Source: an uncultured Pelagibacteraceae bacterium (lineage in GTDB: Bacteria; Pseudomonadota; Alphaproteobacteria; Pelagibacterales; Pelagibacteraceae). From it: 64,000 nucleotides of DNA. Under the pieces are notes generated by a model. It did no database searches and was not told where the DNA came from. It saw only the letters and a program-made list of their open reading frames with translations. A program made the position numbers and the translations under genes. Of the stretch, positions 3,819 to 63,445 are shown piece by piece. How positions within the stretch are numbered: position 1 is the first letter of the stretch; every line of letters starts with the position of its first letter. The DNA is taken from positions 1-64,000 of the forward strand of contig CACBCE010000004.1 in NCBI GenBank assembly GCA_902537665.1. The letters are read 5' to 3'.

Positions 3819-3832
3819 TTTAAATACTTTTA

Positions 3833-18726: not shown

Positions 18727-18751
18727 ACTGTTGCAAATCATAATTTCTTGT

Positions 18752-18779: not shown

Positions 18780-18795
18780 ACAACGACAATTTAAT

Positions 18796-18872: not shown

Positions 18873-18886
18873 TATAAAATTGAAAT

Positions 18887-19594: not shown

Positions 19595-19647
19595 TTTTAT
19601 TTAGAATAAATTTTTTTTATATATATAAATATATAATCAAAAGTACA

Positions 19648-24331: not shown

Positions 24332-24344
24332 CTTAGAAATGAAA

Positions 24345-25208
24345 TTATATTAGTTTTTTAATGTAATCAGAATAAGAGCAATTTCCATAAAACATAATAG
24401 CATTTTCAAGTTGTTTTTTATTTATCCACTTATTATTAAACGCAATCTCCTCTAAACAAGCAATTTTGAATCCTTGTCTATTTTCAATTGCAGATACAAA
24501 GGCACTTGTTTTATAAAAATCTTCAATAGATCCCGTATCTAACCATGCCCCACCTCTTCCAATCAATTCCGCTGATAATTTTTTATTTCTCAGATAGAAA
24601 TTTAATAAATCTACAATTTCTAATTCACCCCTTTTAGATGGTTTAAGTTTTTTTGCATAATTACATACTTTCTTATCAAAAAAGTATAATCCAGTAATCG
24701 CTAAATCAGATAAGAATTTTTTTGGTTTTTCTTTAATACTTTTTATTTTTTTACCCAAAACTTTTGCCACTCCAAAACTTTCTGGATTATTTACTCTATG
24801 GAGCAAAACTTTAGCTCCATTTTTTAATTTAGAACAATTTTGAAGAATTTTTGATAAGTTTTGCCCATAAAAAAAATTATCACCTAATATTAAACAAACA
24901 TTTTGGTTATTAATAAATTTTTCACCTAATATAAATGCTTCAGGCAAACCATTTGGGTTTTTTTGTTCAAGATATTCAATTTTGATACCAAAATTTTTTC
25001 CATCTGGAATTATCTTTTTATATTGAGGTAATTGACCTTTATTAACTATAATTAAAACATCTTTTATACCTGCAAGCATTAAAATAGATAATGGATAGAA
25101 TATTAGTGGTTTATCATGAATAGGAAGCAATTGTTTATTTACAGCTTTTGTTAAAGGACTCATTCTTGTTCCTTTACCTCCAGCTAAAATAATTCCTTTT
25201 TTAATCAT
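24345..25208 (-). CDS. rmlA: Glucose-1-phosphate thymidylyltransferase
   Basis: RmlA makes dTDP-glucose from dTTP and glucose-1-phosphate. The start has GIILAGGKGTRMSPLTKAVNKQL (nucleotide-binding motif, shown in part), followed by LLPIHDKPLIFYPL, then LGDNFFYG and a GGAWLDTGSIEDFY segment near residue 230. The length of 287 agrees with the short RmlA group. The start codon overlaps the rmlB stop by 4 bases, which implies coupled translation of the first two steps. Confidence 0.94.
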   Translation of the reverse strand: MIKKGIILAGGKGTRMSPLTKAVNKQLLPIHDKPLIFYPLSILMLAGIKDVLIIVNKGQLPQYKKIIPDGKNFGIKIEYLEQKNPNGLPEAFILGEKFINNQNVCLILGDNFFYGQNLSKILQNCSKLKNGAKVLLHRVNNPESFGVAKVLGKKIKSIKEKPKKFLSDLAITGLYFFDKKVCNYAKKLKPSKRGELEIVDLLNFYLRNKKLSAELIGRGGAWLDTGSIEDFYKTSAFVSAIENRQGFKIACLEEIAFNNKWINKKQLENAIMFYGNCSYSDYIKKLI

Positions 25209-26218
25209 TTTTTACCTAATCTATTTATAATATCTTTTTTTGATAGTGATTTATAGTATGACTTGTTCTTATAATACCAATTAAGCGTGAATTCTATTCC
25301 TTTAGAAAAATTTGTTTTTGGAGTCCATTTGAGCTTTTTTCTAATTTTATTGCTATTAAGAGCATATCTAACATCATGGCCGGGTCGATCCTTGACAAAA
25401 TTAATTTTTACTTTTTTGCCAAGTCGAATAATTTTTTTTGATTTTTTTAAAAGCTCTTTTGTGACTTGTAAGTTACTTAAGTTTTTATTAGATCCAATAT
25501 TATAAAATTCTCCCAATTTTCCTTTGTGAAATACTTTTATTAATGCTTCACAATGATCCTTTACATATATCCATTCTCTTGAATTAGTTCCTTTTCCATA
25601 TATTGGAAGAGGTCTATTATTCATTATATTATATATTAGTTTTGGGATTAATTTCTCTGGGTGTTGCTTTGGACCATAATTATTAGAGCAATTTGTAACT
25701 ATTGCAGGTAAGTTATAAGTCCTAATGTATGAACTTACTAAATGATCAGATGCAGCTTTACTAGCAGCATAAGGTGAGCTTGGTTTATAAGAATGATTTT
25801 CATCTGTTCTTCCACTTAAAACATCACCATAAACTTCATCAGTTGAAATATGGATTAACTTAGATTTATTTTTTTTTGAAAAATTTTTGAAACATTCTAG
25901 TAGATTGTATACACCTACAACATTACTTTTAATAAAACTCCCTGGATTATCAATGGATCTATCCACATGCGTTTCAGCAGCTAAATTAAAAACTCCTGAT
26001 GGTTTGTATTTCATTAGTATTTTCTCGATTTTCTTATTCGCGATATCAAGCTTTAAAAATTTATAATTTCTAGATCTTTTAAAATCTTTCGTATTATATA
26101 AATTTGATGAATAAGTTCCTTTATCAATATTAATGACGTAAAAATTTTTTTTTAATAATAAATCTATTAAATTACTTCCTATAAATCCTAATCCACCGGT
26201 AACTATGATTTTTTTCAT
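25205..26218 (-). CDS. rmlB: dTDP-glucose 4,6-dehydratase
   Basis: RmlB converts dTDP-glucose to dTDP-4-keto-6-deoxyglucose with bound NAD. The protein has GGLGFIGSN at the N-terminus, FNLAAETHVDRSI, the dehydratase triad HISTDEVYGDV with Asp-Glu, and the catalytic YAASKAASDH, then NNYGPKQHPEKLIP. Length 337. It is the first gene of the rmlB-rmlA-DUF4422-rmlC unit on the minus strand, divergent from a glycosyltransferase gene across a short promoter-bearing gap. Confidence 0.95.
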   Translation of the reverse strand: MKKIIVTGGLGFIGSNLIDLLLKKNFYVINIDKGTYSSNLYNTKDFKRSRNYKFLKLDIANKKIEKILMKYKPSGVFNLAAETHVDRSIDNPGSFIKSNVVGVYNLLECFKNFSKKNKSKLIHISTDEVYGDVLSGRTDENHSYKPSSPYAASKAASDHLVSSYIRTYNLPAIVTNCSNNYGPKQHPEKLIPKLIYNIMNNRPLPIYGKGTNSREWIYVKDHCEALIKVFHKGKLGEFYNIGSNKNLSNLQVTKELLKKSKKIIRLGKKVKINFVKDRPGHDVRYALNSNKIRKKLKWTPKTNFSKGIEFTLNWYYKNKSYYKSLSKKDIINRLGKK

Positions 26219-26227
26219 TTTTTGATT

Positions 26228-26256
26228 TTTACATTAAAAATAAATTTTAGTATAGT
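26228..26256 (+). promoter_or_regulatory. Putative promoter of the GT2 gene
   Basis: TTTACA (26228-26233), a 17-base spacer and TATAGT (26251-26256) predict a start near 26263. This is downstream of the possible TTG start at 26222 and 10 bases before the ATG at 26273, so it supports the ATG as the true start. Confidence 0.55.
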
Positions 26257-26272
26257 CGAGTATACACATATT

Positions 26273-27145
26273 ATGTCAATAACTAGGCAAAACCTTTCAG
26301 TGATCATTGTTAGTTATAAAAGTGATTACGTAATTGAAAATTGTATTAATTCTATTCATAGTGAAATTGAAATAGTTGTAGTTGATAATTCAAACAATGA
26401 TCAATTAAAAGAAAAAATTGAAACTAAGTATAAAAATGTCAAATATATTTTATCAAAAGAAAATTTAGGTATGGGTGCAGGAAATAATTTAGGTATCAAA
26501 AATGTTAATAAAGATTTTGTTTTAATTTTAAATCCAGATGTTACCTTAGAAAAAAGTTCTATAGACGAGATGATTATAGCATCACAAGAAATTGAAAACT
26601 TTGGAATTATTGCTCCTCTCTCAGATAAAAGTGAATATCCCAATTATACTTTAAAAAAGATGAATGATTTTGATCCAATAAAACCTTTCAAGGTTAAAAG
26701 TGTTGATGGATATGCAATGCTTCTAAATTTGAAGAAATTGAAAAAATTAAATGGTTTTTATTTTTTTGATGAGAATTTTTTTTTATACCTCGAGAATGAG
26801 GACTTATGTTTGAGATTAGAGAAGAATGATGAAAATATTTACATAGTACCGAAATCAAGAATTCATCATTTAGGAGGAAAGGCTGTAGATCCAAAATATA
26901 AAAATGAAATTGAATATTTAAGAAATTGGCATTGGATGTGGTCTAAATTTTATTTTAATAAAAAACATTATGGCTATTTGATCGCATTATTTAAAGTTTT
27001 TAAAAATTTGATTTCTGCAAAAATAAAATTTTTTTATTATTTAATTACATTCAATACTTTTAAAAGAAAGATTTATCAGATGAGATTATTAGGTTTGATG
27101 AGCTCTATGATAGGAAAAAATTCTTATTATAGGCCTAACATTTGA
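26273..27145 (+). CDS. Glycosyltransferase family 2 protein
   Basis: The start is put at the ATG 26273 because the earlier TTG frame lies inside the promoter and adds residues the family lacks. The protein has a GT-A core: SVIIVSYKSD at the N-terminus, VVDNSNND, LGMGAGNNLGIKN and the metal-binding LNPDV (DxD-like), with a downstream FFLYLENEDLCLRL segment typical of rhamnosyltransferase-like GT2 enzymes. The C-terminal part is basic and hydrophobic. It is likely to transfer the deoxysugar made by the adjacent rml genes. Confidence 0.83.
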   Translation: MSITRQNLSVIIVSYKSDYVIENCINSIHSEIEIVVVDNSNNDQLKEKIETKYKNVKYILSKENLGMGAGNNLGIKNVNKDFVLILNPDVTLEKSSIDEMIIASQEIENFGIIAPLSDKSEYPNYTLKKMNDFDPIKPFKVKSVDGYAMLLNLKKLKKLNGFYFFDENFFLYLENEDLCLRLEKNDENIYIVPKSRIHHLGGKAVDPKYKNEIEYLRNWHWMWSKFYFNKKHYGYLIALFKVFKNLISAKIKFFYYLITFNTFKRKIYQMRLLGLMSSMIGKNSYYRPNI

Positions 27146-33771: not shown

Positions 33772-35871
33772 ATGAAAAAAGTGAAAAATAATAACATTTA
33801 TATAAATCATATAACTTTAATAATTATTTCTTTTTTAGCCGGTTTATATTTATTAGGATTTGATAATTTAAATTTCTTAAATAAAAACTGGCTTTATTCG
33901 GGTGATTTGTCTCAATACCAAATAGGGTGGGAATTTTTTAGAAATGATAGTTGGAGATTTCCACTGGGTTTTAATCCTAATTATGGATTAGAATTTGGTA
34001 CTAGTATTGCATATTCAGACTCTATTCCTTTATTTGCATTTATATTTAAATTATTTAAAAATTTTTTGCCAGAAAATTTTCAATATTTTTCACTGTGGAT
34101 CGTTTTAATTATTTATCTTCAATTATTATTTTCTTACTTAATTATTTTTAATTTAACTAAAAACTTTTATTTTTCATCAATAAGTATGTTTTTTTTTATT
34201 TTGGCTCCAGTATTTTTAAATAGAAGCGGAATACATTTAAGTCTAGCGGGACATTGGATAATACTTTTTTCATTTTATATAGAGTCAAGTAATTCAAAAT
34301 TAAAACCAATGCTACGAGGTTTCAACTTAATTCTCTCTAGTTTAATTTTTTTTTATTTTACAATGATGTTAATTATCTTGAATTCATTAACTTATTTGTT
34401 TTTATTAATTAAAAAAAAATCTTTATATAAAAATATATTTAAGGAAATTATATTAATTTATCCGTTACTTTTTTTAACAATGTATATTGTAGGTTACTTT
34501 ACGATTAGACCTGAGGATGGTTTGGGCGGGGGTTATGGATATTATAATTTAAATCTAAACAGTCTTTTCAATCCAAACGGTTTTAATTTTTCTGGTTCTT
34601 TTAATTGGTCTGTATTAATGCCAAAACTGCCTTTCAATAATGGTGAGTATGAGGGTTTTTCCTACTTAGGAATAGGTGGTTTTTTTCTTTTATTTTTTGC
34701 AATTTTAAGTTTTTTTAAAAATATAAGAGAATTTTTTATTTCTAGAAAAGAAATATTATTAATTTTTTTTGTATTTTTAGCATTATCAATCTCACAAAAT
34801 ATAAATTTTGGAGAAATTAATATTTTATCAATTGATCTTAATAATTATATTTTAGGAGTTTTAAGTACCATCAGATCAAGTGGCAGACTAATATGGCCAG
34901 TCTATTATTTAATTTTAATTTTAGGTATCTTTTTTATATTTAATTATTTTTCAGGAAAAAAAAGATTTATTATTTTAATATCTTTATTATTTATTCAATT
35001 AATAGATTTATCCAGTGGATTAAAACAATATTATAAAGGCAATCAGTATAATTATATTTCAAAAAATGTGTTCAAAAATGAAGATAATTTTTGGAACAAT
35101 TTATCTTTTAAAATAACTACGTTACGATCAATCAAATTTAGAAATCAGTCTGATTTATATTATGATTTAAGAAATGTTTTTTTGAATTATAATTTTAAAA
35201 AAACAGATATAGTTTATCTTGCAAGATATAACAGAAAAAATACAGCCCTAAATAATTATAAATTGATAGAAAGTTTTTTAAATAAAGAAATGGATATTTT
35301 TAAAGAAACGGCATTTTTAACCAAAGATTTAAATGTAGTAAGAAATATCCATTTTTTATATGGAAAAAATTTATTTTATTATTTTCGAAATAATATTTGG
35401 ATAATAACAAGCCAATATATAGTAAAACCAAACAATATAGAGAGTATTAAAGATAATTTTGAAATTAAAAACATTGTTTTAAATAAAAAAATAAATTTTA
35501 TTAATTCCAAAAATTTAAATTATGGTTTTGGCTGGGAAAAGCAATCTAGAGGATTAGCCTCGGATGGTAATTATTCTTCCATTATATTTAAAATAGATAA
35601 TAAAAATTGTTCAGAAAATTTTTATTTAAAATTGAATGTAGAAAATTATTATAATGATATTAAAGGTGATTTTAATTTATATTTAAACAATAAGATTTTA
35701 TCAAAGAAAAATTTAAATCGTATTCCTTTAAAGATAAATTGTGACAATATACAAAATTATTATATTCTTGAGTTTAAATATCAAGGACCAATTTCATTAA
35801 GAGAATTAAATAGAGGACTTAATCATTCTAAAAGATCTATAATACTAAAAGAAATTGAAATTATAAGTTAA
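33772..35871 (+). CDS. DUF6311-like multi-pass membrane protein
   Basis: The 699-residue protein has a hydrophobic first 420 residues with about ten membrane segments and a hydrophilic C-terminal part. It begins with WLYSGDLSQYQIGWEFFRND and SIAYSDSIPLFAF, which resemble the DUF6311 group (GT-C-like membrane glycosyltransferases). A glycosyltransferase GT2 gene follows on the same strand. It may therefore transfer a lipid-linked sugar, but there is no proof and no clear catalytic motif apart from the loop Asp residues. Confidence 0.6.
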   Translation: MKKVKNNNIYINHITLIIISFLAGLYLLGFDNLNFLNKNWLYSGDLSQYQIGWEFFRNDSWRFPLGFNPNYGLEFGTSIAYSDSIPLFAFIFKLFKNFLPENFQYFSLWIVLIIYLQLLFSYLIIFNLTKNFYFSSISMFFFILAPVFLNRSGIHLSLAGHWIILFSFYIESSNSKLKPMLRGFNLILSSLIFFYFTMMLIILNSLTYLFLLIKKKSLYKNIFKEIILIYPLLFLTMYIVGYFTIRPEDGLGGGYGYYNLNLNSLFNPNGFNFSGSFNWSVLMPKLPFNNGEYEGFSYLGIGGFFLLFFAILSFFKNIREFFISRKEILLIFFVFLALSISQNINFGEINILSIDLNNYILGVLSTIRSSGRLIWPVYYLILILGIFFIFNYFSGKKRFIILISLLFIQLIDLSSGLKQYYKGNQYNYISKNVFKNEDNFWNNLSFKITTLRSIKFRNQSDLYYDLRNVFLNYNFKKTDIVYLARYNRKNTALNNYKLIESFLNKEMDIFKETAFLTKDLNVVRNIHFLYGKNLFYYFRNNIWIITSQYIVKPNNIESIKDNFEIKNIVLNKKINFINSKNLNYGFGWEKQSRGLASDGNYSSIIFKIDNKNCSENFYLKLNVENYYNDIKGDFNLYLNNKILSKKNLNRIPLKINCDNIQNYYILEFKYQGPISLRELNRGLNHSKRSIILKEIEIIS

Positions 35872-35963
35872 ACTAATATTTTGTTATAGTAATTAATAAA
35901 TAGTTTATAAAACTCCAAATTTTTTGATTTTGATATTTTTAATATATGGATTATGAATAGTTG

Positions 35964-36911
35964 ATGAAGTTTTTTTTTATAATACCAGTTTTTAATGATG
36001 AAAAAAGTTTGGTAAAACTTACTAAAGAAATTAAAGATATCCTTTATAAAGACTCTAATGAGTTAAACTTTATTATTGTAAATGATGCATCAGATGAAAA
36101 AATAAATAATATCTCAAATATTCCGAATGCTCATTTTATAAATTTAAAATCAAATCAAGGTAATCAAAAATCCATATACGTTGGATTAAACTATTTAAAT
36201 GAACTTGACGTGAATTATGACTATTTGATAGTGATGGACTCTGATGGAGAAGACAATCCCAAGGATATTTTTAAGCTAATTGATAAATGTAAAGAAAATA
36301 ATGATAAAAAAATCATTTTTGCATCAAGACTGAGAAGAAACGAGGGTTTGATTTTCAAATTTTCTTACTTTTGTTACAAACTAATTTTTAGATTTTTAAC
36401 TGGAAAAAAACTTAATTTTGGAAATTTTAGTTGTATTCCTAAACAATATGTTAAAAATATTGTTAATCTTCCGACAATATCTTTTCATTATTCTGCAAGC
36501 ATATTAAAATCAAAAATTCCTTATTTATCAGAGCCATGCGACAAAGGAAAAAGATACGATGGTGACTCAAAAATGAAATTAAACAGTCTTCTGCTTCATG
36601 CTCTAAAATCTTTATCAATATATTATGAGGAAATACTTATCAGATTTCTAGTTTTATCTACTGCAGGAATTTTAATTGGTTTATTTTCAATAATATTAAT
36701 TTTTTTCAATAAATTTTTTGCAACTTTTGTGCTTATTGGCTGGTCATCAAATATGGTAATAGGTTTAACAATCATTACTATAATATTTTTATTTATGTTC
36801 TTCTCTTGTCTATTAATTTTACTAAATAAAAATATTTATAGAGAAAACACTGAAAATTTCAAAAATTATAAATTTTTAATTGGAACAATTGAAAATGCAA
36901 ATCATGATTAA
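35964..36911 (+). CDS. Glycosyltransferase family 2, membrane-anchored (DPM1-like)
   Basis: A TTG and an ATG start are adjacent; ATG at 35964 is chosen. The N-terminal domain has FIIPVFNDEKSL, IIVNDASDE, NQGNQKSIYVGLNYL and the metal site VMDSDGEDNP, like dolichyl/undecaprenyl-phosphate sugar synthases. Two or three membrane segments at the C-terminus (about 230-300) anchor it, as in polyprenol-phosphate mannosyl/glucosyl transferases. It follows the multi-pass DUF6311-like gene, so the pair could make and use a polyprenol-linked sugar. Confidence 0.8.
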   Translation: MKFFFIIPVFNDEKSLVKLTKEIKDILYKDSNELNFIIVNDASDEKINNISNIPNAHFINLKSNQGNQKSIYVGLNYLNELDVNYDYLIVMDSDGEDNPKDIFKLIDKCKENNDKKIIFASRLRRNEGLIFKFSYFCYKLIFRFLTGKKLNFGNFSCIPKQYVKNIVNLPTISFHYSASILKSKIPYLSEPCDKGKRYDGDSKMKLNSLLLHALKSLSIYYEEILIRFLVLSTAGILIGLFSIILIFFNKFFATFVLIGWSSNMVIGLTIITIIFLFMFFSCLLILLNKNIYRENTENFKNYKFLIGTIENANHD

Positions 36912-36984
36912 TGACTAGTATATAAAACTTTTCAGGATATTGATTTCATATTTTTTAGACTTAATATTACAATTAAGCCTAGAC

Positions 36985-38136
36985 CTACAAAACTACCAGA
37001 TCCATTTTTTGCTTACCTAATCTTTCATTTCCGGTTTCTGTAACCACATATGTCTCTCCTAAATTCATTGCTAATTGTGCCTCACTGTCCATTAAGATCA
37101 TATGCATAAAAAAAATGTTTCCAGGCTTAATTACATAAGGATTGTTTGTGTAAAGCATTGGCCAATCCATCCAATTTGGAGAAAAAGTATTCCCTAATGA
37201 ATAACCACAAGCGTTCATTCGAGATTTATTGAAACCAAGATCATCAAACGTTTTTGCATGAGCGTCAAAAACTTCTCCAATTTTATTTCCAGGTATTAAT
37301 TTTGACTCACAATTATATAGAGCTTCAACACATGCTTCATGCATTTTATGATGTTTAGGATTTGCTTTACCAATAGGAATAGTTCTAAACATTGCAGAAT
37401 GGTAATGTCTATAAGTACCAGCCCATTCAATAGTTAATTGATCTTGTTTTTCTAAAATTTGTTTTTCTGCTTGATAACGACAAAGTAATGCATTTTTACC
37501 AGAACCAATTATAAATTCATTTGCAGGATAATCTCCACCACCTTCAAATATAACTCTGTTCATTTCTGCTAATATCTTAGATTCACTAACACCAGCCTTA
37601 GCATGTTTCCATACTTCGTCCAAAGCTTTATCTGCAAGCTCTGCAGCCTTTTTAACATAAACAATTTCCTCTTTAGACTTTACTACTCGTAATTTTGTTA
37701 TTAAGTCTGATTTATCCTCAAGAGAACAATAATTTTCTAAAGATTTATTTAATCGAAGAGCATTACGGCCAGTTAAACCATAAGCCTCATATTCAACTCC
37801 TAATTTTTTTCCTTTAAGATTTAATTCATCCAAAATAACTTTAAGATCATCTGTTGGATTTGATCCATCTTTATCAATCCATATTCTAATATCTTCTATG
37901 TTTGATGTATTTTGAGCCTGTCTTAAATCAGGAACTCTTGTAAGTAATATTGTATTTCCATTTTTATCCAAAACTAATGTTTGAAAAAAAACATAACCAA
38001 AAGTGTCATAACCAGTCAACCAATACATTGACTCTTGTCTAAACATTAAAAGAGCATCAAGATTTTGCTTTTGCATAGAATTTAATACTTTATTTTTTCT
38101 GCTAGAAAACTCTTCTTTTGAAAAATGAAGCGCCAT
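36985..38136 (-). CDS. M24-fold hydrolase with altered metal ligands (DoeA/EutD-like)
   Basis: The 383-residue protein has the creatinase/prolidase two-domain layout. However, the usual metal-binding residues differ. The first Asp site reads IEWAGTYRHYHSAMFRT (Glu in place of Asp, Ala at the second Asp), the His site is CGYSLGNTFSPNW, and the Glu site is FFMHMIL. This pattern resembles ectoine hydrolase (DoeA/EutD) proteins. No ectoine pathway partners are nearby, so the substrate is open. It starts at ATG 38136, 9 bases after the DUF6165 gene stop. Confidence 0.75.
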   Translation of the reverse strand: MALHFSKEEFSSRKNKVLNSMQKQNLDALLMFRQESMYWLTGYDTFGYVFFQTLVLDKNGNTILLTRVPDLRQAQNTSNIEDIRIWIDKDGSNPTDDLKVILDELNLKGKKLGVEYEAYGLTGRNALRLNKSLENYCSLEDKSDLITKLRVVKSKEEIVYVKKAAELADKALDEVWKHAKAGVSESKILAEMNRVIFEGGGDYPANEFIIGSGKNALLCRYQAEKQILEKQDQLTIEWAGTYRHYHSAMFRTIPIGKANPKHHKMHEACVEALYNCESKLIPGNKIGEVFDAHAKTFDDLGFNKSRMNACGYSLGNTFSPNWMDWPMLYTNNPYVIKPGNIFFMHMILMDSEAQLAMNLGETYVVTETGNERLGKQKMDLVVL

Positions 38137-38145
38137 TAGAATGAT

Positions 38146-38535
38146 TTAGTAACTCGTATATTCTTTTATCTCTTTTATGACTGAACCGGTATGATTATTA
38201 ATTTCTAGCTTTATTTTTGCTCGATCATCATTAAGGAAATGCACATCTCTTGAAAGTTTAATAAACTTTTCTCCAAAATCTTTATCCTTTTCACACTGTC
38301 TTTTATCATCTTCGATAACCCATAGTTTAGAATTTATTTCTTTGAGCGATTGGTAAAGATCATTTAGTTTATCATCAGATTTTACATTTTTATCCAACTG
38401 ATTTTTTAAAATAAAGTGTTCATTGTTAATAAATTTTAGTTTTTCAGAATCTTTAATTTTTCCTTGTTTGATTTCTAAAATTGAAATTTTATCTAAAAGT
38501 TCACCTATGGAAACTTCTACTATAATTTTATTCAT
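38146..38535 (-). CDS. DUF6165 family protein
   Basis: This 129-residue helical protein has an N-terminal VEVSIGELLDKISILEIKQGKI stretch, characteristic of the DUF6165 group, and a long charged coiled region. The family has no known activity but often lies beside glycosyltransferase genes. Here it is divergent from the heptosyltransferase-like gene (33-base gap) and upstream of the M24 gene. No signal or membrane segment is visible. Confidence 0.65.
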   Translation of the reverse strand: MNKIIVEVSIGELLDKISILEIKQGKIKDSEKLKFINNEHFILKNQLDKNVKSDDKLNDLYQSLKEINSKLWVIEDDKRQCEKDKDFGEKFIKLSRDVHFLNDDRAKIKLEINNHTGSVIKEIKEYTSY

Positions 38536-38567
38536 AAAATTTAATACTGTGCTATCTTGTTATAAAT

Positions 38568-39509
38568 ATGTCTAATATTTTAATTATTAAACACGGGTCA
38601 TTAGGAGATATAGCTCAAGCAAGTGGTGCAATTCAAGACATATTTGAAAATCATAAAAATGATCGAATTTATTTACTAACTACAAAAGCTTATTTAGAAG
38701 TTTTTAAAAAAAATCCATTTATTCATGAAGTAATTCTAGATAAAAGGTTGCCAAGATATAATCTTATATACTTATATTTCTTAATGAGAGAACTTAAGAA
38801 ACATAGTTTTTCAAAAGTTTTCGATCTTCAAAATTCCTCAAGAACAAATTTTTATAAGAGTATTCTTTTTCCTAAAGCAAAAAAAGAAACATGGTCTAGC
38901 TCAATTACAACTTTGCCAGAAGTAATAGATAAAAAGGAATTTGATAAACACTCTGTTCTAGATAGATTTAATCATCAATTACAAAACTCAGGACTTAAAA
39001 CATCTCATACTTTAAATCCTAATTTTAGTTGGGCTGGCTCTGAGATCAGCAAAATCAAAGATCATTTCAAATTGAATAAATTTATTTTATTATTTCCTTT
39101 TTGTTCGCCTCACTTACATATAAAGAAATGGCCTTATTATAATGATCTTATAAAACTTATTTTAGATAAATTTGGTAATGAATATAAAGTTTTTTTAGCT
39201 CCGGGCCCATCAGAGATAAATGATGCAAAAGAAATAAATGCTGAAGTTTTATTAGATAATGGAAAAGCACTTGATATTTCTCAACTAACTTCTTTAATTA
39301 AAGAAAGCACCTTTGTTATTGCTAATGATACTGGACCTGCTCATATTGCAGCTCATGTTGGAGCTAAAGGCTTAACTTTATTTGGAAAACATACTACTGC
39401 ATACAAAGTCAGTATTGAAAGAGATAATTTTAAAGCAATTGAAGTAACAGACTTAAACAATTTGAGTGCAGAAAAAGTTTTTGAAAGATTAGTTAATTCT
39501 TTAAATTAA
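38568..39509 (+). CDS. Glycosyltransferase family 9 (heptosyltransferase-like)
   Basis: The 313-residue protein has IKHGSLGDIAQASGAIQDI at the N-terminus and, in the C-terminal half, VIANDTGPAHIAAHVGAKGLTLFG, the nucleotide-sugar site of GT9 enzymes such as WaaC/WaaF. The WPYYNDL and LFPFCSPH segments also fit. It likely adds a heptose or a related sugar to the LPS core or to another surface glycan. Its end overlaps the convergent GT4 gene by 4 bases. Confidence 0.85.
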   Translation: MSNILIIKHGSLGDIAQASGAIQDIFENHKNDRIYLLTTKAYLEVFKKNPFIHEVILDKRLPRYNLIYLYFLMRELKKHSFSKVFDLQNSSRTNFYKSILFPKAKKETWSSSITTLPEVIDKKEFDKHSVLDRFNHQLQNSGLKTSHTLNPNFSWAGSEISKIKDHFKLNKFILLFPFCSPHLHIKKWPYYNDLIKLILDKFGNEYKVFLAPGPSEINDAKEINAEVLLDNGKALDISQLTSLIKESTFVIANDTGPAHIAAHVGAKGLTLFGKHTTAYKVSIERDNFKAIEVTDLNNLSAEKVFERLVNSLN

Positions 39510-40588
39510 TTAAGAATTTTTTTGTATTCTTCGAAAGTTTTATCCCATTGAAATTTTGAAACATACTCTTTGGCATTTTTTCCAAGTTCGATATATCTTT
39601 TATTTTCGATCATTGAATTTAATGATGAATAAATCTCATCTAAATCGTTACCGTCACAAATTAATCCAGTTCTATCATGGTCAATGGCATCTGATGCACC
39701 ACCATCCTTTCCTCCTAACGAAGGAATTCCATATTGTGCAGCTTCAACATATGCTATTCCAAAACCCTCTACGGAAGTTTTATGAATTATAGATGGCATG
39801 ACAAAAATATTTGATTTTGCCACTAAGGCATTTTTCAAATCAGTGCTTATGTCTTTAAAGAACATTACTTGTGAAGTTAGATCTAATTCTTCAACTAATT
39901 TTTTTATATTCTCCTCTTCATCACCATAACCAATACAAATATAAACAATATCAGGGTATAATTGTTTCAAATTTCTTAGTGCCATAATTATTTTTTCATG
40001 ATTTTTTCTCTTATCAAATCTAGAAACAGTAATAAGTCTTGGTGTTTTTATTTTTAATATACTTTCGACTTTCTCAAGAGATTTTTTATTTAATTCTTGT
40101 ACTGGATCAGCTCCAGGATTTATGACTATAACTTTACTTTGTTCTAAACCATTATTTATCGCTAAATTCTTTGTGTACTCAGAATTTGCAATTACTTTTT
40201 CTACATTATTAAGAACCTTTACAACTCTTTTATTTAATGAACTTCCTACAGGATGGTTGATCTCCTTACCGTGAATTAAACAATACTTTTTTTTATCAGT
40301 TTTGATTAATTCTAAACTTTTCCAGTGATCAGCAATGATCCCCTCAACTTTATTTTCTTTTAAAAATTCATTTATTAATTGAGCTTTTCTTATTTTTCTT
40401 AAAAATTTTATTCCACCAACTCTTTCAATGGAAAAACTTGCTTGCTCATCAAAATCTTTGTGATTTTCATGATAATCTGCAAAGACTTTAACCATGAAAT
40501 TTTTGGACATTTCACGAGACAAACCCCACATCAAACTTTGCATTCCACCCAATTCTGGGGGAAAAGTTCTAGTAACAATAATATACAT
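39506..40588 (-). CDS. Glycosyltransferase family 4 protein
   Basis: The 360-residue GT-B enzyme has RTFPPELGGMQSLMWGL at the acceptor side. In the C-terminal domain it shows TVSRFDKRKNHEKI, IGYGDEEENIKKLV and the EGFGIAYVEAAQYGIP Glu-x7-Glu site. Length agrees with the family. It overlaps the start of the thioredoxin-like gene by 1 base and the convergent GT9 gene by 4. It belongs to the scattered surface-glycan genes of this stretch. Confidence 0.88.
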   Translation of the reverse strand: MYIIVTRTFPPELGGMQSLMWGLSREMSKNFMVKVFADYHENHKDFDEQASFSIERVGGIKFLRKIRKAQLINEFLKENKVEGIIADHWKSLELIKTDKKKYCLIHGKEINHPVGSSLNKRVVKVLNNVEKVIANSEYTKNLAINNGLEQSKVIVINPGADPVQELNKKSLEKVESILKIKTPRLITVSRFDKRKNHEKIIMALRNLKQLYPDIVYICIGYGDEEENIKKLVEELDLTSQVMFFKDISTDLKNALVAKSNIFVMPSIIHKTSVEGFGIAYVEAAQYGIPSLGGKDGGASDAIDHDRTGLICDGNDLDEIYSSLNSMIENKRYIELGKNAKEYVSKFQWDKTFEEYKKILN

Positions 40589-41142
40589 TAATTAGTTTTC
40601 CACTTAATACCACAACCAGCACTAGGAATTTGGTTCTCAGGACCTTTATTTGTTTCAGCAATTTGTTTCATTGCTTTTAAAAGATCACTATCTCCATCTC
40701 TAACTGGAATTAATTTTTTAAGTTCTCTTACTCTTCCTCTATACTGAAGTTCTAAATCCTTGTTATATCCAAAAAAATCTGGAGTACATACCGCATCATA
40801 AGTTTTTGCTACTTCTTGTGTTTCATCAACTAAATAAGGAAAACTAAAATGATTTTTTTTTGAAAACTCAATCATATTTTCAAAAGAATCTTCAGGATAA
40901 TTTTCAGCATCATTAGCGCAAATAGCAACAGAGTTAATACCGATGTCTTTTAATTTTTTACAATCTTCAACAATATCTTTTGTTACTGCTTTTACATACG
41001 GACAGTGATTACAAATAAACATAATTAATGTTCCTTTTTCACCTTTGACATCTGCTAAGGAAAGAATTTTACCCTCAGTTGATTTAAGCTTAAAGTCATG
41101 GGCTTTTTGACCAAAATCACATATTGGAGTTTGTATTGGCAT
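40588..41142 (-). CDS. Thioredoxin-like redoxin (CxxC)
   Basis: The 184-residue protein is a redoxin of the AhpC/TSA-like thioredoxin fold. The N-terminal part has DFGQKAHDFKLKSTEGK, followed by the active-site CNHCPYV, and the C-terminal end SAGCGIKWK is typical of this subgroup. No signal peptide is present, so it should be cytosolic. Function could be peroxide or thiol reduction; no partner is nearby. It ends in a 1-base overlap with the GT4 gene. Confidence 0.83.
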   Translation of the reverse strand: MPIQTPICDFGQKAHDFKLKSTEGKILSLADVKGEKGTLIMFICNHCPYVKAVTKDIVEDCKKLKDIGINSVAICANDAENYPEDSFENMIEFSKKNHFSFPYLVDETQEVAKTYDAVCTPDFFGYNKDLELQYRGRVRELKKLIPVRDGDSDLLKAMKQIAETNKGPENQIPSAGCGIKWKTN

Positions 41143-44296: not shown

Positions 44297-45502
44297 ATGT
44301 TTAAAAGTTTAAGTTTAAAAGTAATTATATTTGGTTTTATATTTACATTTTTTTCTAGTTTTGGACAGAGTTTTTTTCTTGGTCTTTTTAATTCTAGTAT
44401 ACGAGAAGCATTATCTATCAGTCAGGGACAGTTTGGATCAATTTATGCATCTGCAACTTTGCTTAGCAGTTTTTTATTAATTTGGGTCGGAAAAAAAATA
44501 GATGATATCGATATTTTTAAATTTGCATTTTTTGTTACGATACTTTTATCTTTTTCATGTTTTTTCTTTTCAAAGATCTCTTCAGTAACTTTTTTATTTA
44601 TGGCAATTTTATTAATGAGGTTTTCAGGTCAAGGGATGATGTCACATACTGCAACCACAACAATTTCAAGATATTTTACAAAATCTAGAGGAAAAGCTTT
44701 GAGCACAAGTTGGTTTGGTCTTTCTACCGCTGAATTTATACTCCCTGTTTTAATAGTATATTTGCTAACCATTACTTCTTGGCAAAATTTATGGATATCT
44801 ATCTCAATATTAGTTTTGATATTTCTTCCAATAGCCTCTTTTATTTTAGTAAAAAATTTAAACTTTGAATCAAGGGAAGAGACAGACCAAGAAGAATTCA
44901 ATCAGAAAATAAAACAATGGAAAAGAATTGAAGTTCTAAAAGACTATCGATTTTATATAGTTTGTCTGAATATGTTAGCTATGCCTTGGATTGCAACAGG
45001 TGTATTTGTTTACCAATCTTTTATCACAGAGTCTAAAGGGTGGGGTGCTTATGTAATAGCCCAATCTTTTATGATCTACTCTGTTTTATCAGTAATAACT
45101 TTATTAGTTGCAGGTTTCTTGATTGATAAATTCACTAGCAGAAAATTACTTATTTTTATGAATATTCCATTATTAATTTCAACAATAGTTTTAATGTATT
45201 TTGATATTTCACTTTCAGCTTTCTTATTTTTAGGTTTAATTGGGATATCCAATGGACTCGCTAACGTACTAGGTTCCTCAACATGGGCAGAAATTTACGG
45301 CGTTAGACACATTGGTTCAATAAAAGCTTTAACTACAGCATTGATGGTTTTTTCAACGGCTTTTGGTACTGCATTATTTGGCCTTTTAATTGATACAGGG
45401 TTTTCAATTGAACAGGTTGCTCAAATATCATTTATCTATATTGCTATAGCTGCTATCTTATTATTTTTTGTCAGAAATAAGCTAAATCCAGAATATTTAT
45501 AA
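44297..45502 (+). CDS. Major facilitator superfamily transporter
   Basis: This is a 401-residue hydrophobic protein with about twelve membrane segments. ISQGQFGSIYASATLLSSFLL and WVGKKIDDID in the second-third helix loop resemble the MFS A-motif region, and a hydrophilic loop splits the halves near residue 200. It is 11 bases from the divergent dehydrogenase gene. Substrate is not readable; an organic acid would fit the neighbour, but this is only a guess. Confidence 0.85.
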   Translation: MFKSLSLKVIIFGFIFTFFSSFGQSFFLGLFNSSIREALSISQGQFGSIYASATLLSSFLLIWVGKKIDDIDIFKFAFFVTILLSFSCFFFSKISSVTFLFMAILLMRFSGQGMMSHTATTTISRYFTKSRGKALSTSWFGLSTAEFILPVLIVYLLTITSWQNLWISISILVLIFLPIASFILVKNLNFESREETDQEEFNQKIKQWKRIEVLKDYRFYIVCLNMLAMPWIATGVFVYQSFITESKGWGAYVIAQSFMIYSVLSVITLLVAGFLIDKFTSRKLLIFMNIPLLISTIVLMYFDISLSAFLFLGLIGISNGLANVLGSSTWAEIYGVRHIGSIKALTTALMVFSTAFGTALFGLLIDTGFSIEQVAQISFIYIAIAAILLFFVRNKLNPEYL

Positions 45503-56970: not shown

Positions 56971-57894
56971 TTAAGTGTCTAGATCTAAAAAATGAATACT
57001 AAAAAGTTTTTTGTCGTCAACCCAGGTCTTTTTAATTTTCCATCCAGCTTTATTAACTATATTCCTGAAGGATTTAATTGTATATTTATGAGAATTCTCG
57101 GTGTGTATCTCCTCATTTTTTCTAATAAAATATTTTGAACCATTTATTTTAATATTATTATTTTTTCTAGATTTTAATCTCATCTCAATTCTTTTCTTTT
57201 TTGTATTATAAATAGCTAAATGTTTATATAAATTTAAGTTTATATCACCACCTAATTCATTGTTAATTCTTTGTAAAATATTTTTGTTAAATTCTGCAGT
57301 TACACCTTTTTTATCATCGTAAGCAGAAATTAAAGTTGGAATATCTTTAACCAAATCAACACCAATGATAATTTTTTTTGCTTTAAATTTTGATTTAAGT
57401 ACTTTTAAAAACTTAACAGCCTCATTTGTTTCAAAATTACCAATAGTTGATCCTGGAAAAAAAATAATTATATTTTCTGATGATTTTATTTTAAATGGTG
57501 GTTTATTGTTGCTTGAGAAATCATATCCTTTTGGAGTAATAGCTATTTTTGGAAATTTCTTTTTAAAGCTTTGAGATATTTTAGTTATATAATCTTCAGA
57601 AATATCTAAAGGTATATATTTTTTTGGTTTATCTAGTCTGTTGAGAAAAATAGCAATTTTTTTGGTATCCCCAGCGCCTGGTTCAATTATAACAGCTTCT
57701 TTACCTATTTTTTTTGCAATTTCAATTTTATTTTCTTTTAAAATTTTTCTTTCTGTTCGTGTTGGATAATACTCTTTCAACTTAGTAATTTTTTCAAAAA
57801 GTTTTGACCCCTGGAAGTCGTAAAACCATTTAGAGCTTATTTTTTTGTTTCTCTTACTTAAGCCTAGACTTATTTCTTCTGAAAATGATTTCAT
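56971..57894 (-). CDS. egtD: EgtD-like histidine N-alpha-methyltransferase
   Basis: EgtD methylates the amino group of histidine three times to give hercynine, the first step to ergothioneine. The 307-residue protein has FYDFQGSKLFEKI, EPGAGDT (71-77), the SAM/histidine segment FPGSTIGNFE with Asn153 (matching Asn166 of the mycobacterial enzyme), AYDDKKGVTAEFN, and Glu266-x-Ser268 in HTENSHKY (matching Glu282 and Ser284). All histidine-binding residues that I can place are kept. No EgtB is in the window. It overlaps the methyltransferase gene by 4 bases. Confidence 0.85.
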   Translation of the reverse strand: MKSFSEEISLGLSKRNKKISSKWFYDFQGSKLFEKITKLKEYYPTRTERKILKENKIEIAKKIGKEAVIIEPGAGDTKKIAIFLNRLDKPKKYIPLDISEDYITKISQSFKKKFPKIAITPKGYDFSSNNKPPFKIKSSENIIIFFPGSTIGNFETNEAVKFLKVLKSKFKAKKIIIGVDLVKDIPTLISAYDDKKGVTAEFNKNILQRINNELGGDINLNLYKHLAIYNTKKKRIEMRLKSRKNNNIKINGSKYFIRKNEEIHTENSHKYTIKSFRNIVNKAGWKIKKTWVDDKKLFSIHFLDLDT

Positions 57895-58811
57895 TTTATA
57901 TTAGGTACAACTAAAAGACGACTAATTGGCATTGAAAAACGTCCTAGTCTCTGAATATCATTACTTTGGTTAGATACTGTGAGAAGTTTAGATAGACTTG
58001 TGATCATTAACTTTCTTTTCTCTGGCTTCAAGACAAATGCAGCATAAAAAAATCCAGCTACAATTTCAGCTATTTGAGTAACTGGTCCCTCTATAGACAC
58101 AACATTAGTTTCAATAGTTACATTTGCCCCTGGAAAAATTTTTTGAACAAGTATACTTAGGCTTTCTGATCTTCGTATCCTTGGATCGCCCAAATCAATC
58201 TCTCCATAACTTGGTATTTCCTCTTTTACATAACTATAAATTAAATCGTGTACATTTTTGTAACCGGGCGCAATATTCATTGGTCCGTCAACTATTGCTG
58301 CAAACTGACCCTTATGAGTTAAAACTCGTTTGACTTCATTTAATACAGGGTCTATCGGGTCCATTAATGTTAAAGCCCAATGACATAAGACTATGTCAAT
58401 AGAGTTATCATTAATTATCTTCAAATTTTGCGCACTGGTCTCAATAAGACTAGTTCCACTGTCTTTGAGGCGTATCTTTGCTAATGCTAATTCCTCAGGA
58501 CTCATGTCTACTCCTTTTAAATTTAAATTTTTATTTCGATCAAATAATATTTTTAATAATGGCCCAGAACCACACGCAAGATCTAATACATTTGAAACTC
58601 CATTGTCTGGTACAAGTTCAGCTAGCCATTCGTAACTATTACGCCCAAGTCTATCACGACAAGAACTTGCACACACTTCAGTAAATCCAGCGTGTTCTTG
58701 GTGGATAGTTCTTAAATGGTCAATTAAAGCATTTCCATTAGGATGTTTATGGCGAGCGAGACTGCCAGTCCAAATCGAATTAAATCCCTTTTGATTATTC
58801 ATGTCTATCAT
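57891..58811 (-). CDS. SAM-dependent methyltransferase of the EgtD cassette
   Basis: The 306-residue protein has a class I core: VLDLACGSGPLLKIL for SAM, GVDMSPEELALA, DIVLCHWALTLMDP and an RVLTHKGQFAAIVDG strand. The N- and C-terminal parts are of no known family to me. It is linked by 4-base overlaps to the PhyH-like gene upstream and to egtD downstream. Codon and base use look less AT-rich than egtD. It may modify the same small molecule as EgtD and the dioxygenase-like protein. Confidence 0.75.
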   Translation of the reverse strand: MIDMNNQKGFNSIWTGSLARHKHPNGNALIDHLRTIHQEHAGFTEVCASSCRDRLGRNSYEWLAELVPDNGVSNVLDLACGSGPLLKILFDRNKNLNLKGVDMSPEELALAKIRLKDSGTSLIETSAQNLKIINDNSIDIVLCHWALTLMDPIDPVLNEVKRVLTHKGQFAAIVDGPMNIAPGYKNVHDLIYSYVKEEIPSYGEIDLGDPRIRRSESLSILVQKIFPGANVTIETNVVSIEGPVTQIAEIVAGFFYAAFVLKPEKRKLMITSLSKLLTVSNQSNDIQRLGRFSMPISRLLVVPNIK

Positions 58812-59806
58812 ATTTCACTTTTAACTGGCCAACAAATCGGATTAAGTTGACTAGCAGCAATGTCTCCTGGTTTGACATTGGGCATGAATTTCTGCCAGTC
58901 ACCAGAGACCATAGTTGGTGAGTTGATTACTCTTGCTCCATCTCGGTAATAAGTATTGGCTAAAGCTATTCGACTACAGTTAGTACGATTGCTTGACGCG
59001 GTATGAAAATTTAAATTATGATGAAAGCTAACCTCACCAAGTTCAAATGGAGTAGCATTCACATTCACATTATTCTTTGAAAAAATGTTTGAGACTTCTC
59101 TGTCATATCCAGTACCAGTTTTTTCAAAAGTGACATCTTTAATTAATTCGTGAACATCGAGTGGATAGGCAAAAGAAAGCGGTCCCATTTCAATAGGAGT
59201 TGGCTGTGCTGGAGCCCAAGCCGTAACCACATCATTAGTATCTAGCGGAAAATGATGATCATCAAAGTGCCATGGTGTACGACCACAACCAGATTGTTTA
59301 GCTAGCACATTGTCATGGTAAAGTCTAACAGCTGATACTTCGAGAAGATTTGCAGAAATTTGCCCTAGACGAGGTGACAACACATAGGCACGGAGGAGAG
59401 CGTTGTCAGGCCAAGTCATTTCAAGGCTTAGGAAACGGTCATATGCTTCTTTATCTGGATCAACTTTAAATTCTTTTTTTAATAGATTAATTAACTCAGC
59501 TCTAAGTTTCAGTACAGCTCCTGGCGAGAAAACCTTTTTAAGTTTTATAAAGCCATTTTTTTTGAAAAAATTAACTTGATCATTAGTCAAATGGTAGGGC
59601 TCAGCCAATTCTGAGATAACTTCATCGTCACTGGGTATTTGAATATCTGGTAAAGGATTGATATTTATTATTTCATGTTCTTTAGAGTCATTATCTGCAA
59701 GACTAACATACCAGTCCCACCATGCCTGATTATCTTTATCCCATGGTTTACTGATATCAGTAGATTCAGATTTTTTAGGATTTAAATTGCTATTAGAATT
59801 TTTCAT
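58808..59806 (-). CDS. Phytanoyl-CoA dioxygenase (PhyH)-like protein
   Basis: This 332-residue protein has a PhyH-type iron/2-oxoglutarate oxygenase core. The metal site HxD is in TPWHFDDHHFPLD, the distal His and Arg are in FHHNLNFHTASSNRT, and MGPLSFAYPLDVH is typical. The N-terminal 55 residues are a polar extension. It starts the cassette that continues with a methyltransferase and egtD. Hand counts of 60-base lines here give 40-50% G+C, versus 17% in a line of egtD. Confidence 0.82.
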   Translation of the reverse strand: MKNSNSNLNPKKSESTDISKPWDKDNQAWWDWYVSLADNDSKEHEIININPLPDIQIPSDDEVISELAEPYHLTNDQVNFFKKNGFIKLKKVFSPGAVLKLRAELINLLKKEFKVDPDKEAYDRFLSLEMTWPDNALLRAYVLSPRLGQISANLLEVSAVRLYHDNVLAKQSGCGRTPWHFDDHHFPLDTNDVVTAWAPAQPTPIEMGPLSFAYPLDVHELIKDVTFEKTGTGYDREVSNIFSKNNVNVNATPFELGEVSFHHNLNFHTASSNRTNCSRIALANTYYRDGARVINSPTMVSGDWQKFMPNVKPGDIAASQLNPICWPVKSEI

Positions 59807-59922: not shown

Positions 59923-61047
59923 TTATCTTTGATTTAATTGTAGAACTTTTCTGTGCTTGTTGCCTTTGTAACTTGCAAGTGGTCGGATCAATTTGTTTGC
60001 AGCGTGTTGCTCCATTATATGTGCTGACCAACCAGTTATTCTTGAAATAACAAATATAGGTGTGAAAAAATCTGTATCAAATCCCATCAAATGATAGGTT
60101 GGTCCTGTCGGATAATCCACATTTGGATGAATGTTTTTTCTTTCTATCATTACCTTTTCAACAATGTCATAGATTTTTTCAAATTTCTTATCTTTTTTAA
60201 TTTTTGCTACTTTAGCGAAATATTTTCTCATTGTAGGAACTCTTGAGTCTCCACTTTTGTAAACTCTATGGCCAAAACCCATAACAACTTCTTTGTTATC
60301 TAAGGCATCATTTATCCATTTAAGAGCGTTTTTAGGATCCTTAATTTTGTTCATCATATGCATTACTTCTTCATTAGCCCCTCCATGTAATGGACCTTTT
60401 AAACTTGCTATTGCCCCAGTAATTGCACCGTGAATATCAGACAAGCTGCTGGTAATAGTTCTTGCAGTAAAAGTTGAAACGTTAAAGCTATGCTCTGCAT
60501 ACAATATTAAAGACACATCAAAAGCTTTTACTATTTCTTTTTGAGGTACTTTTCCAAAACACATATAAAAAAAGTTTTCTGCTATATTTAAATTTTTTTT
60601 GGGTTTGATAATTTTTTTACCTTTTCTAATTCTGTAGAAAGCAGCTAATGCAGTGGGAGTTTTTGCAAGGATTCTAATCGCTTTTCTCATATTTGCTTCA
60701 AGAGAGGAATCAGTTGTTTCTTTATCCTCTAAACCCATAATACTTACGGCTGTTCTAGCCACATCCATAGGATGGGATTTTTTAGGCATTTTTTTTATAA
60801 CTGAGTATAAATCTTTAGATAATTCTCTATTATTTTTCTCTTCCTTTTCAAATTTTCTTAGCTGAATAGTATTCGGTAAATCCTTATTTAAAATAAGATA
60901 TGCTACTTCCTCAAATCTACAATATTCACAAAGATCTTGAGCAGCATAACCTCTATAAGTTAGAGAGTTAATTTCAGGCATTACTTTTGAGACTTCTGTT
61001 TCGTCTACAACAATTCCTAATAAGCCTTTTTTAATATCATCACTCAT
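59923..61047 (-). CDS. prpC: 2-methylcitrate synthase
   Basis: PrpC condenses propionyl-CoA with oxaloacetate. The 374-residue citrate-synthase fold has INSLTYRGYAAQDLCEYC, the LKGPLHGGANEEV His, GFGHRVYKSGDSR with the second His, and AEHSFNVSTFTARTI, which is closer to PrpC than to GltA. NVDYPTG has the catalytic Asp. It ends the prpD-prpB-prpC unit and overlaps prpB by 1 base. Confidence 0.9.
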   Translation of the reverse strand: MSDDIKKGLLGIVVDETEVSKVMPEINSLTYRGYAAQDLCEYCRFEEVAYLILNKDLPNTIQLRKFEKEEKNNRELSKDLYSVIKKMPKKSHPMDVARTAVSIMGLEDKETTDSSLEANMRKAIRILAKTPTALAAFYRIRKGKKIIKPKKNLNIAENFFYMCFGKVPQKEIVKAFDVSLILYAEHSFNVSTFTARTITSSLSDIHGAITGAIASLKGPLHGGANEEVMHMMNKIKDPKNALKWINDALDNKEVVMGFGHRVYKSGDSRVPTMRKYFAKVAKIKKDKKFEKIYDIVEKVMIERKNIHPNVDYPTGPTYHLMGFDTDFFTPIFVISRITGWSAHIMEQHAANKLIRPLASYKGNKHRKVLQLNQR

Positions 61048-61943
61048 TATTCGTGACCATCGGTGTTAAAGTTATAAATTTTTTCATCTAAACTATTATA
61101 TTTCTCGTAATCTACAAGATCATATAAACGTTTTCTAGTTTGCATTTTATCAATAATGTTGTTTTGGTGTCCATTTGCATAAATGTCCCTCAAACCATCC
61201 TCAACGTTTTTCATTGCTAACCTTTGAGTTGTAACAGGATAAATAACGATGTTGTAACCCAGTTCTTCTAATTGTTTGTAATTTAATAATTTAGTTTTTC
61301 CAAACTCAGTCATATTGGCTAACAAATAACACGATAATTCTTTTCTAACTTTTTCAAAATCCTTTTCATTATGAAGCGCCTCAGGAAAAATAATTTCTGC
61401 TCCAGCATCGATATAAGCCTTGCATCTCTCGATCATTTTATCAATTCCCTCTACACTTTTTGCATCGGATCTTGCAATAATCTTAAAATTTTCATCTTTT
61501 TTCGCAGAAACACATTCTTTAATTTTTTTCACCATTGCATCTGTGGATATCAATTCTTTATTATCTAGGTGTCCACATCTTTTTCTTTCAATTTGATCTT
61601 CTAAATGAACTCCTGTAATTCCAAACTCTTCAAAAGTTTCTATAGTTTCTTTACATGATTTAAATCCTGTATCTATATCTACAATTGTAGGAAGATTTGT
61701 AACTCTAGAAATTAAGTAAGACCGCGTACTAACATCTTGCAGTGTGGTTAATCCAATATCAGGAAATCCAAGATCATTTGCCATAACACCTCCTGAAACA
61801 TAAACAGCATCATAACCAATCTCCTCAATTAATTTTGCTGTTAAAGGATTATAAGCACCAGGAACTCTTAATATTTTTTTGGATTTTAATTTATCTGTAA
61901 AATCTTTTCTTTTTTGTATTGGTTCTTTTTCAACAAAATGCAT
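61047..61943 (-). CDS. prpB: 2-methylisocitrate lyase
   Basis: PrpB splits methylisocitrate into pyruvate and succinate. The 298-residue protein of the isocitrate lyase superfamily has RVPGAYNPLTAKLIEEIGYDA, YVSGGVMAN, DIDTGF and the catalytic KRCGH (in ERKRCGHLDN). Length fits PrpB (about 295). It overlaps prpC and prpD by 1 base each, so the three genes of the pathway are translated together. Confidence 0.93.
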   Translation of the reverse strand: MHFVEKEPIQKRKDFTDKLKSKKILRVPGAYNPLTAKLIEEIGYDAVYVSGGVMANDLGFPDIGLTTLQDVSTRSYLISRVTNLPTIVDIDTGFKSCKETIETFEEFGITGVHLEDQIERKRCGHLDNKELISTDAMVKKIKECVSAKKDENFKIIARSDAKSVEGIDKMIERCKAYIDAGAEIIFPEALHNEKDFEKVRKELSCYLLANMTEFGKTKLLNYKQLEELGYNIVIYPVTTQRLAMKNVEDGLRDIYANGHQNNIIDKMQTRKRLYDLVDYEKYNSLDEKIYNFNTDGHE

Positions 61944-63445
61944 TAAAAAATTCCTTTTTTTAAATTTCGTTTAATTTTGCTCTTTTTAATAACAATATTC
62001 AATCTATCTAATTGACCTGACTTTAGTTTTCTTAAGTTTTGCACAGTTTTTAAAAATCTTTCTATTTCTTTTTTATCTAAAATATTCTCGGTAAGTGTTA
62101 AAAATTTGTTTATATAATTTTTTCTCTTGAATGGTCTTGAGCCATTAGGATGAGCATCTGCAACTCCTTGTTCTTCGGTAATTTTTTTTCCATTTTTAAG
62201 GGTAATTATGACTTTTGCACCAAAAGCTTTCTTTCTGGGGTTTGGGTCATGATATCTTTTGGTCCATTTTTTATCCTCATGGGTTTTGATTGATCTCCAA
62301 ATCTTAATTGTACTTTTTCTTTTTGCTCTGGCTTTCGAATATGATTTTACATGATGCCAACTACCATCTTCTAAAGCTACAGCAAATATATACATTATTG
62401 AATGATCTAAAGTTTCTCTACTTGCATTTGGATCCATTTTTTGAGGATCGTTTGCACCTGTACCAATTACATAATGAGTATGATGACTGGTATAAATATC
62501 AATTTTTTTTATTTGATTTAGATTTAATACTTTCTTTCTAAGTTTTTTTGCAAGATCAATTAACGCTTGAGATTGATATTCGGCAGAATATTCTTTTGTG
62601 TAAGTTTCAAGAATAGCTCTCTTAGTCTCGTTTTTTTTTGGAAGTGGGACTCTATATAACGCTTTCTTTCCATCTAAAATTCGTGCTATAACACTATCTT
62701 CACCTTCATAAATTGGACTTGGAGCACCTTCACCACGCATAACTCTATCCACAGCTTCAATTGCAAGTTTACCAGCATGTGCTGGGGCATAAGCTTTCCA
62801 ACTAGAGATTTCACCTTTTCTAGACTGTCTAGTTGAAATAGTTGTATGTAGAGCTTGTTGAACAGCTTGATAGATTGTTTCTGTATTTAGTCTTAACATC
62901 GATCCTATTCCAGCAGCAACACTAGGTCCTAAGTGAGCGATGTGGTCTACTTTATGTTTATGTAAACAAATTCCTTTAACTAAATTAACTTGCACTTCAT
63001 AGGCAGTAATTATCCCTCTTAAAAGATCTAATCCGCTTCTTTTATTTTGTTGTGCAACACTTATAAGGGGAGGAATATTATCGCCAGGATGACTGTAATC
63101 AGCTGCTAAAAAAGTATCATGAAAATCAAGTTCTCTTACAGCTGTTCCATTGCTCCATGCAGCCCATTCGCAATCAAATTTTAATTTACTATTAACACCA
63201 AATAATGTTGCACCGTTTTTTCTCAAATGTTTCAAAGCCATTTCCCTAGATGAGATAACTGGATGTCTGTTTAGTGAGGCTATTGCAACTGAAGCATTAT
63301 CAATAATTCTATTAATTACCATCTCTATCGCTTCTTTATCTAACTTCGAATTATCACTCGCAATCTCTGCGATTTTCCAAGCTAGTTGTTTTTTTTTGGG
63401 TAAGTGAACTTTAGATGGGAAAACTTTTACGTTATGTATGATCAA
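61943..63445 (-). CDS. prpD: 2-methylcitrate dehydratase (MmgE/PrpD)
   Basis: PrpD dehydrates methylcitrate to methylaconitate. The 500-residue protein has [21 protein letters not shown], a [21 protein letters not shown] stretch, and [21 protein letters not shown], as in the MmgE/PrpD family. The gene leads the operon on the minus strand. Together with PrpB and PrpC it would give a complete path from propionyl-CoA to pyruvate if aconitase is encoded elsewhere. The gene order D-B-C differs from the common B-C-D. Confidence 0.93.

Follow-up and report, generated by a model that had tools for sequence, protein, structure and literature searches.

We found that a three-gene cassette in a SAR11 genome, which links an L-histidine trimethyltransferase (EgtD) to a PhyH-type dioxygenase and a second methyltransferase (MT306), is probably a hercynine-tailoring module, in which this precursor of ergothioneine would be diverted into an undescribed modified histidine betaine. 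The link to hercynine as the precursor is well supported, and the chemistry and the product are what we infer from the enzyme families.

Gene organization of the cassette

The window, that is, the whole stretch of 64,000 nucleotides that was analyzed, belongs to assembly G000 (SAR11, Pelagibacteraceae; 26 contigs, 1.04 Mb, 81% complete), and its closest named relatives are uncultured Pelagibacteraceae SAGs. The cassette occupies positions 56971-59806 on the minus strand, in the order PhyH, MT306 and EgtD, and comprises the following features:

58808..59806, minus strand, PhyH-type Fe(II)/2-oxoglutarate dioxygenase (PF05721), 332 aa, first gene of the cassette
58808..58811, minus strand, ATGA stop/start overlap of PhyH and MT306 (seen in the sequence), translational coupling
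57891..58811, minus strand, MT306, class I SAM methyltransferase (PF08241), 306 aa, partner of PhyH in nearly all loci
57891..57894, minus strand, ATGA stop/start overlap of MT306 and EgtD (seen in the sequence)
56971..57894, minus strand, EgtD, L-histidine N-alpha-trimethyltransferase, predicted to form hercynine (TIGR03438 and pocket residues), 307 aa

The two overlaps confirm the first-pass annotation, which had described three genes linked by four-base stop/start overlaps. The PhyH-MT306 overlap was also present in most relatives that carry the same triplet without EgtB (hereafter the EgtB-less triplet).

Inspection of the translations revealed a prpC-prpB-prpD-like set (2-methylcitrate cycle) at 59923-63445 on the minus strand, which ends approximately 117 bp upstream of PhyH. 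A tie of the cassette to these upstream genes was rejected, as the neighbors vary among the EgtB-less-triplet loci. Elsewhere in the window, positions 1-5500, 16000-27000 and 33800-41000 have a low GC content (about 20-28%) and, by inspection, contain NDP-sugar and glycosyltransferase-like genes, resembling a hypervariable surface-polysaccharide region.

Sequence and structural features of the three proteins

The window EgtD passed the TIGR03438 equivalog profile for L-histidine N-alpha-methyltransferase with 355.7 bits (cut-off 290.9) and stayed below the cut-off of fungal EasF (166.6 vs 205.6 bits). It aligned with M. smegmatis EgtD (4pim; 2e-45), and nine of nine histidine-pocket residues were kept, namely Y39, F47, Y56, G161, N166, Y206, M252, E282 and S284 (M. 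smegmatis reference). Seven of them, Y39, F47, Y56, N166, Y206, E282 and S284, are listed as ligand-site contacts in PMC8593015. Judged by profile and pocket residues, the protein is a bona fide histidine methyltransferase, and the earlier description of a histidine trimethyltransferase with all placeable histidine-binding residues was borne out. The pocket was likewise unchanged in the EgtDs checked from EgtB-less-triplet loci and from the four-gene loci described below.

The window PhyH matched PF05721 with 47.9 bits (cut-off 22; 2.7e-12). The iron ligands H180, D182 and H268 (HxD..H) and the 2-oxoglutarate-binding R279 line up with human PHYH, and both the HxD..H motif and the arginine were invariant in 17 homologues. 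The protein also carries a conserved N-terminal motif, DNQAWWDWY, outside the part matched to known hydroxylases; its structure model was weak (pLDDT 62.7). MT306 matched PF08241 with 58.5 bits (cut-off 21.2; 1.1e-15), has the motif I LDLACGSG, and gave an AlphaFold2 model with a Rossmann fold and a mean pLDDT of 89.7. A fold search (Foldseek/VIA) placed MT306 at Z-scores of 22-23 to GtmA, TmtA and OxaG. Many rows were tied, and the fold is one common to small-molecule methyltransferases in general, so no substrate could be read from it. Neither MT306 nor PhyH had a close characterized relative, so the reaction types proposed here are guesses at the family level. A viral origin was rejected, since relatives of MT306 and PhyH were absent from viral contigs and PhyH had no matches among phages; plasmid carriage was rejected as well, with only distant PhyH matches (Streptomyces, Emticicia) in unrelated contexts.

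Recurrence and arrangements of the cassette

A scan of a genome collection with the PhyH alignment gave 80 loci, which were sorted by gene order. The EgtB-less triplet PhyH-MT306-EgtD was found in 28 of the 80, and a four-gene operon, EgtB-PhyH-MT306-EgtD, in 19, all from SAR11. PhyH-MT306 without an adjacent EgtD accounted for 25 loci, again all from SAR11; the order EgtD-PhyH-MT306 occurred twice, and EgtD-PhyH-MT306-EgtB once, in a Burkholderiales SAG. The remaining five loci had PhyH-MT280-MT306 and were labelled Rhodobacteraceae, Marivita, Actibacterium and Thioalkalivibrio. The ORF caller placed L120 under PhyH-MT306, and tblastn showed MT280 in it.

The EgtB-less triplet occupied at least seven genomic contexts, named by inspection as the prpC/nrdB side, the lpdA/priA side, 161-aa-gene/ABC, TauE-like/pgm-like, EamA-like/MFS and two others. 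Its median pairwise dN/dS values of 0.11 (PhyH), 0.20 (MT306) and 0.13 (EgtD) indicate purifying selection. The triplet genes are functional and stay together while their surroundings change, and their recurrence is far beyond chance. The suggestion that the genes belong together was supported.

The Rhodobacterales-type loci encode a further SAM methyltransferase, MT280, between PhyH and MT306. The distant alphaproteobacterium G204 has the order PhyH-MT280-MFS-MT306, and in G242 and G422 MT280 and an MFS gene lie just past PhyH-MT306-SSS symporter. In L118 and L120, EgtD adjoins PhyH in divergent orientation, and a search of these two genomes gave no EgtB; in G242 and G422, EgtB adjoins EgtD at a locus separate from the module. 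MT280 was not found in 101 relatives nor in the SAR11 loci fetched, and the idea that it is hidden elsewhere in SAR11 was rejected on these grounds. The window itself encodes an MFS transporter at 44297-45502 on the plus strand, with 31-34% identity to the MFS proteins that G204 and G242 encode in or beside their PhyH/MT280/MT306 clusters. This gene is 11 kb away from the cassette and could be either part of the SAR11 core or a transporter of the product.

EgtB is absent from the triplet genomes searched, and PhyH-MT306 tracks EgtD

No egtB was found in G000 or in the 28 other EgtB-less-triplet genomes searched (0/29; 26 genomes together with G000, G032 and G035). As G000 reaches just 81% completeness, it is the relatives that provide the statistical argument for a true absence. 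SAR11 genomes of known completeness were 54-97% complete, and unlinked EgtD was detected in 14 of 17 SAR11 genomes with the two-gene arrangement. From this rate, the detection of an unlinked gene can be estimated at about 80%. At 70% detection, the probability of missing a real unlinked EgtB 29 times would be approximately 1e-15, assuming independent genomes, which these are not fully.

The same 14 of 17 stands against approximately 9% of SAR11 relatives with EgtD, and EgtD was present in 47 of 50 carriers of PhyH-MT306 overall. Among the 101 relatives, 9 had EgtD, 6 had EgtB and 4 carried the PhyH cassette; each of the four carriers also had EgtD, and the EgtD genomes without PhyH-MT306 had EgtB alongside (5/5). 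In a sample of 399 SAR11 genomes, EgtD or EgtB was found in 26 of 26 PhyH carriers vs 30 of 373 other genomes (Fisher, 1.5e-25, phylogeny ignored); this fused-query search scored two candidates per genome, and third partners may be missed. EgtD was also present in G242, G422 and G204. From this co-occurrence across samples, it follows that PhyH-MT306 tracks EgtD, not EgtB, and that it occurs with or without EgtB. The earlier description of a cassette without EgtB therefore holds for the EgtB-less-triplet genomes and not for the module as a whole: EgtB lies within the cluster in 19 of the 80 loci, from SAR11, and in the Burkholderiales SAG, and its absence is no fixed trait of the module. Taken together, the missing EgtB and the tie of PhyH-MT306 to EgtD make hercynine, as substrate or precursor, the best reading.

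One site flanked by EamA-like and MFS transporter genes bears on how the EgtB-less state arose; there we observed three states: EgtB-EgtD (L179, L180), EgtB-PhyH-MT306-EgtD (L054, L184) and PhyH-MT306-EgtD (L048). The flanks of L048 and L054 are syntenic, with identities of 69% and 56%. In the EgtD tree, one state change suffices for the rows of the EgtB-less triplet, but support is weak (63) and many forks are open; among the outgroup EgtDs, several have EgtB as a partner. Loss of EgtB from an ergothioneine operon is the simpler reading, although unproven, because of this single state change and the EgtB-paired outgroups. Within SAR11, the PhyH-MT306 pair would have been gained by, or lost from, an ergothioneine operon; in the clade of the window EgtB would then have gone, and ergothioneine would no longer be expected.

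Proposed pathway and alternative readings

In the proposed pathway, EgtD would trimethylate histidine to hercynine, which would then be taken by the PhyH-type Fe/2-oxoglutarate dioxygenase, most likely for hydroxylation, instead of receiving sulfur through EgtB. MT306 would methylate the PhyH product, most likely at the new hydroxyl or at an imidazole nitrogen (O- or N-methylation), and MT280 would add a further methyl group in the long clusters. The end product would be an undescribed modified histidine betaine; its role as an osmolyte-like or signalling zwitterion is a guess.

The steps could also run in the reverse order, with PhyH and MT306 modifying histidine or another imidazole first and EgtD trimethylating last. 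We consider this order unlikely. The 25 SAR11 loci in which PhyH-MT306 has no adjacent EgtD would fit it, and the best argument for it is an M252G exchange in the unlinked EgtDs of the two-gene SAR11 genomes read, which would enlarge the side-chain pocket; the effect of M252 on the pocket is known from EgtD mutants. The substrate of these M252G enzymes may thus be other than plain histidine. On the other hand, the histidine pocket is unchanged in the window EgtD and in all EgtDs checked from EgtB-less-triplet and four-gene loci, and EgtB partners require unmodified hercynine.

In the loci read, a glycine-betaine-type ABC transporter (OpuAC) is encoded next to, or close to, the unlinked EgtD of the two-gene group. 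M252G homologues were observed near an OpuAC/permease pair in L136, L137, L138 and L142, with two further genes between in L142, and these enzymes may make betaines from a larger amino acid. In L137 (positions 3704-5356; G523), the genes between the betaine-type ABC permease and the M252G EgtD encode an HD-domain protein and a dioxygenase of the TauD family, a pair that resembles TmpA/TmpB of trimethylaminoethylphosphonate metabolism.

It is quite improbable that hercynine is consumed, with PhyH hydroxylation opening a breakdown that feeds SAR11 C1 metabolism through glycine betaine or trimethylamine, and with the methyltransferase being a side activity. Beta-hydroxylation followed by retro-aldol cleavage is chemically simple, as in the trimethyllysine hydroxylase and aldolase of carnitine synthesis, and SAR11 bacteria use betaines. 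However, synthesis and breakdown in the same operon would be wasteful, as EgtD spends three SAM; no lyase or aldolase is linked to the cassette, and the methyltransferase is always kept, with a second one in the longer clusters.

A cassette that still serves ergothioneine, either because PhyH and MT306 modify ergothioneine or because another sulfurtransferase replaces EgtB, appears very doubtful. The existence of EgtB-PhyH-MT306-EgtD operons speaks for it, and in the 19 of 80 loci with EgtB in the operon the substrate of PhyH and MT306 could be ergothioneine. Nevertheless, EgtB was found in none of the 29 EgtB-less-triplet genomes, and PhyH-MT306 persists where EgtB was not found. Ergothioneine routes past hercynine use EgtB, EanB or MES, the last being a molybdopterin-cysteine desulfurase fusion reported from anaerobes only (PMC9516567). 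The rhodaneses read in G000 were 127 aa and 271 aa long, the latter SseA-type, and were not EanB-like by length or best matches. The EgtB-less routes therefore look unlikely for this cassette.

That PhyH-MT306 and EgtD are unrelated genes co-travelling on a mobile operon is extremely improbable: like mobile gene groups, the cassette has many different locations, and the pair stands alone in some genomes, but unlinked EgtD accompanies it in 14 of the 17 two-gene genomes, far above the background of SAR11 relatives, and in distant alphaproteobacteria, and the linkage is seen in several arrangements.

Comparison with known systems and significance

The hercynine-tailoring module resembles oxygen-dependent ergothioneine biosynthesis (EgtD-EgtB) in its equivalog-level EgtD and in its position inside an egtB-egtD operon in 19 SAR11 loci. 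In contrast, the cassette of the window has PhyH and a second methyltransferase in place of EgtB. It shares with the EanB and MES systems an EgtD without EgtB, although the cassette contains no sulfur-transfer gene. The PhyH-type hydroxylases EctD, MysH and SnoK/SnoN belong to the same Fe(II)/2-oxoglutarate dioxygenase family and gave weak profile matches, whereas the window PhyH had low identity to them in the alignments seen, with DNQAWWDWY outside the matched part. Cyanobacteria accumulate hercynine as a cellular betaine, as covered in part of PMC3826126, and that part describes no PhyH or methyltransferase tailoring. In the open-licence PMC literature, we found no precedent for EgtD with a phytanoyl-CoA dioxygenase, or for ergothioneine or EgtD in SAR11 or Pelagibacter, which is weak evidence. 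As far as found, the enzyme families are known, and their combination and dependence on EgtD are new.

At about even chances, the module represents an undescribed and widespread marine branch of histidine-betaine metabolism, in which a dedicated PhyH would hydroxylate hercynine and dedicated methyltransferases, one in SAR11 and two in Rhodobacterales-type and other Alphaproteobacteria, would methylate it to give a new zwitterion that would have replaced ergothioneine in many SAR11 cells. EgtD is usually taken as a marker of ergothioneine synthesis, yet many genomes of SAR11, which are among the ocean's commonest bacteria, retain EgtD and lack EgtB, and the partner that stays with EgtD is a dioxygenase-methyltransferase pair. 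EgtD without any sulfurizing enzyme was reported for approximately 80 genomes, and MES accounted for 55 of them (PMC9516567); the module is a candidate explanation for part of the remaining EgtD-only genomes. If the proposed pathway is true, EgtD alone would be insufficient to infer ergothioneine, hercynine would be a branch point beyond a mere intermediate, and SAR11 would make an undescribed betaine despite extreme genome streamlining.
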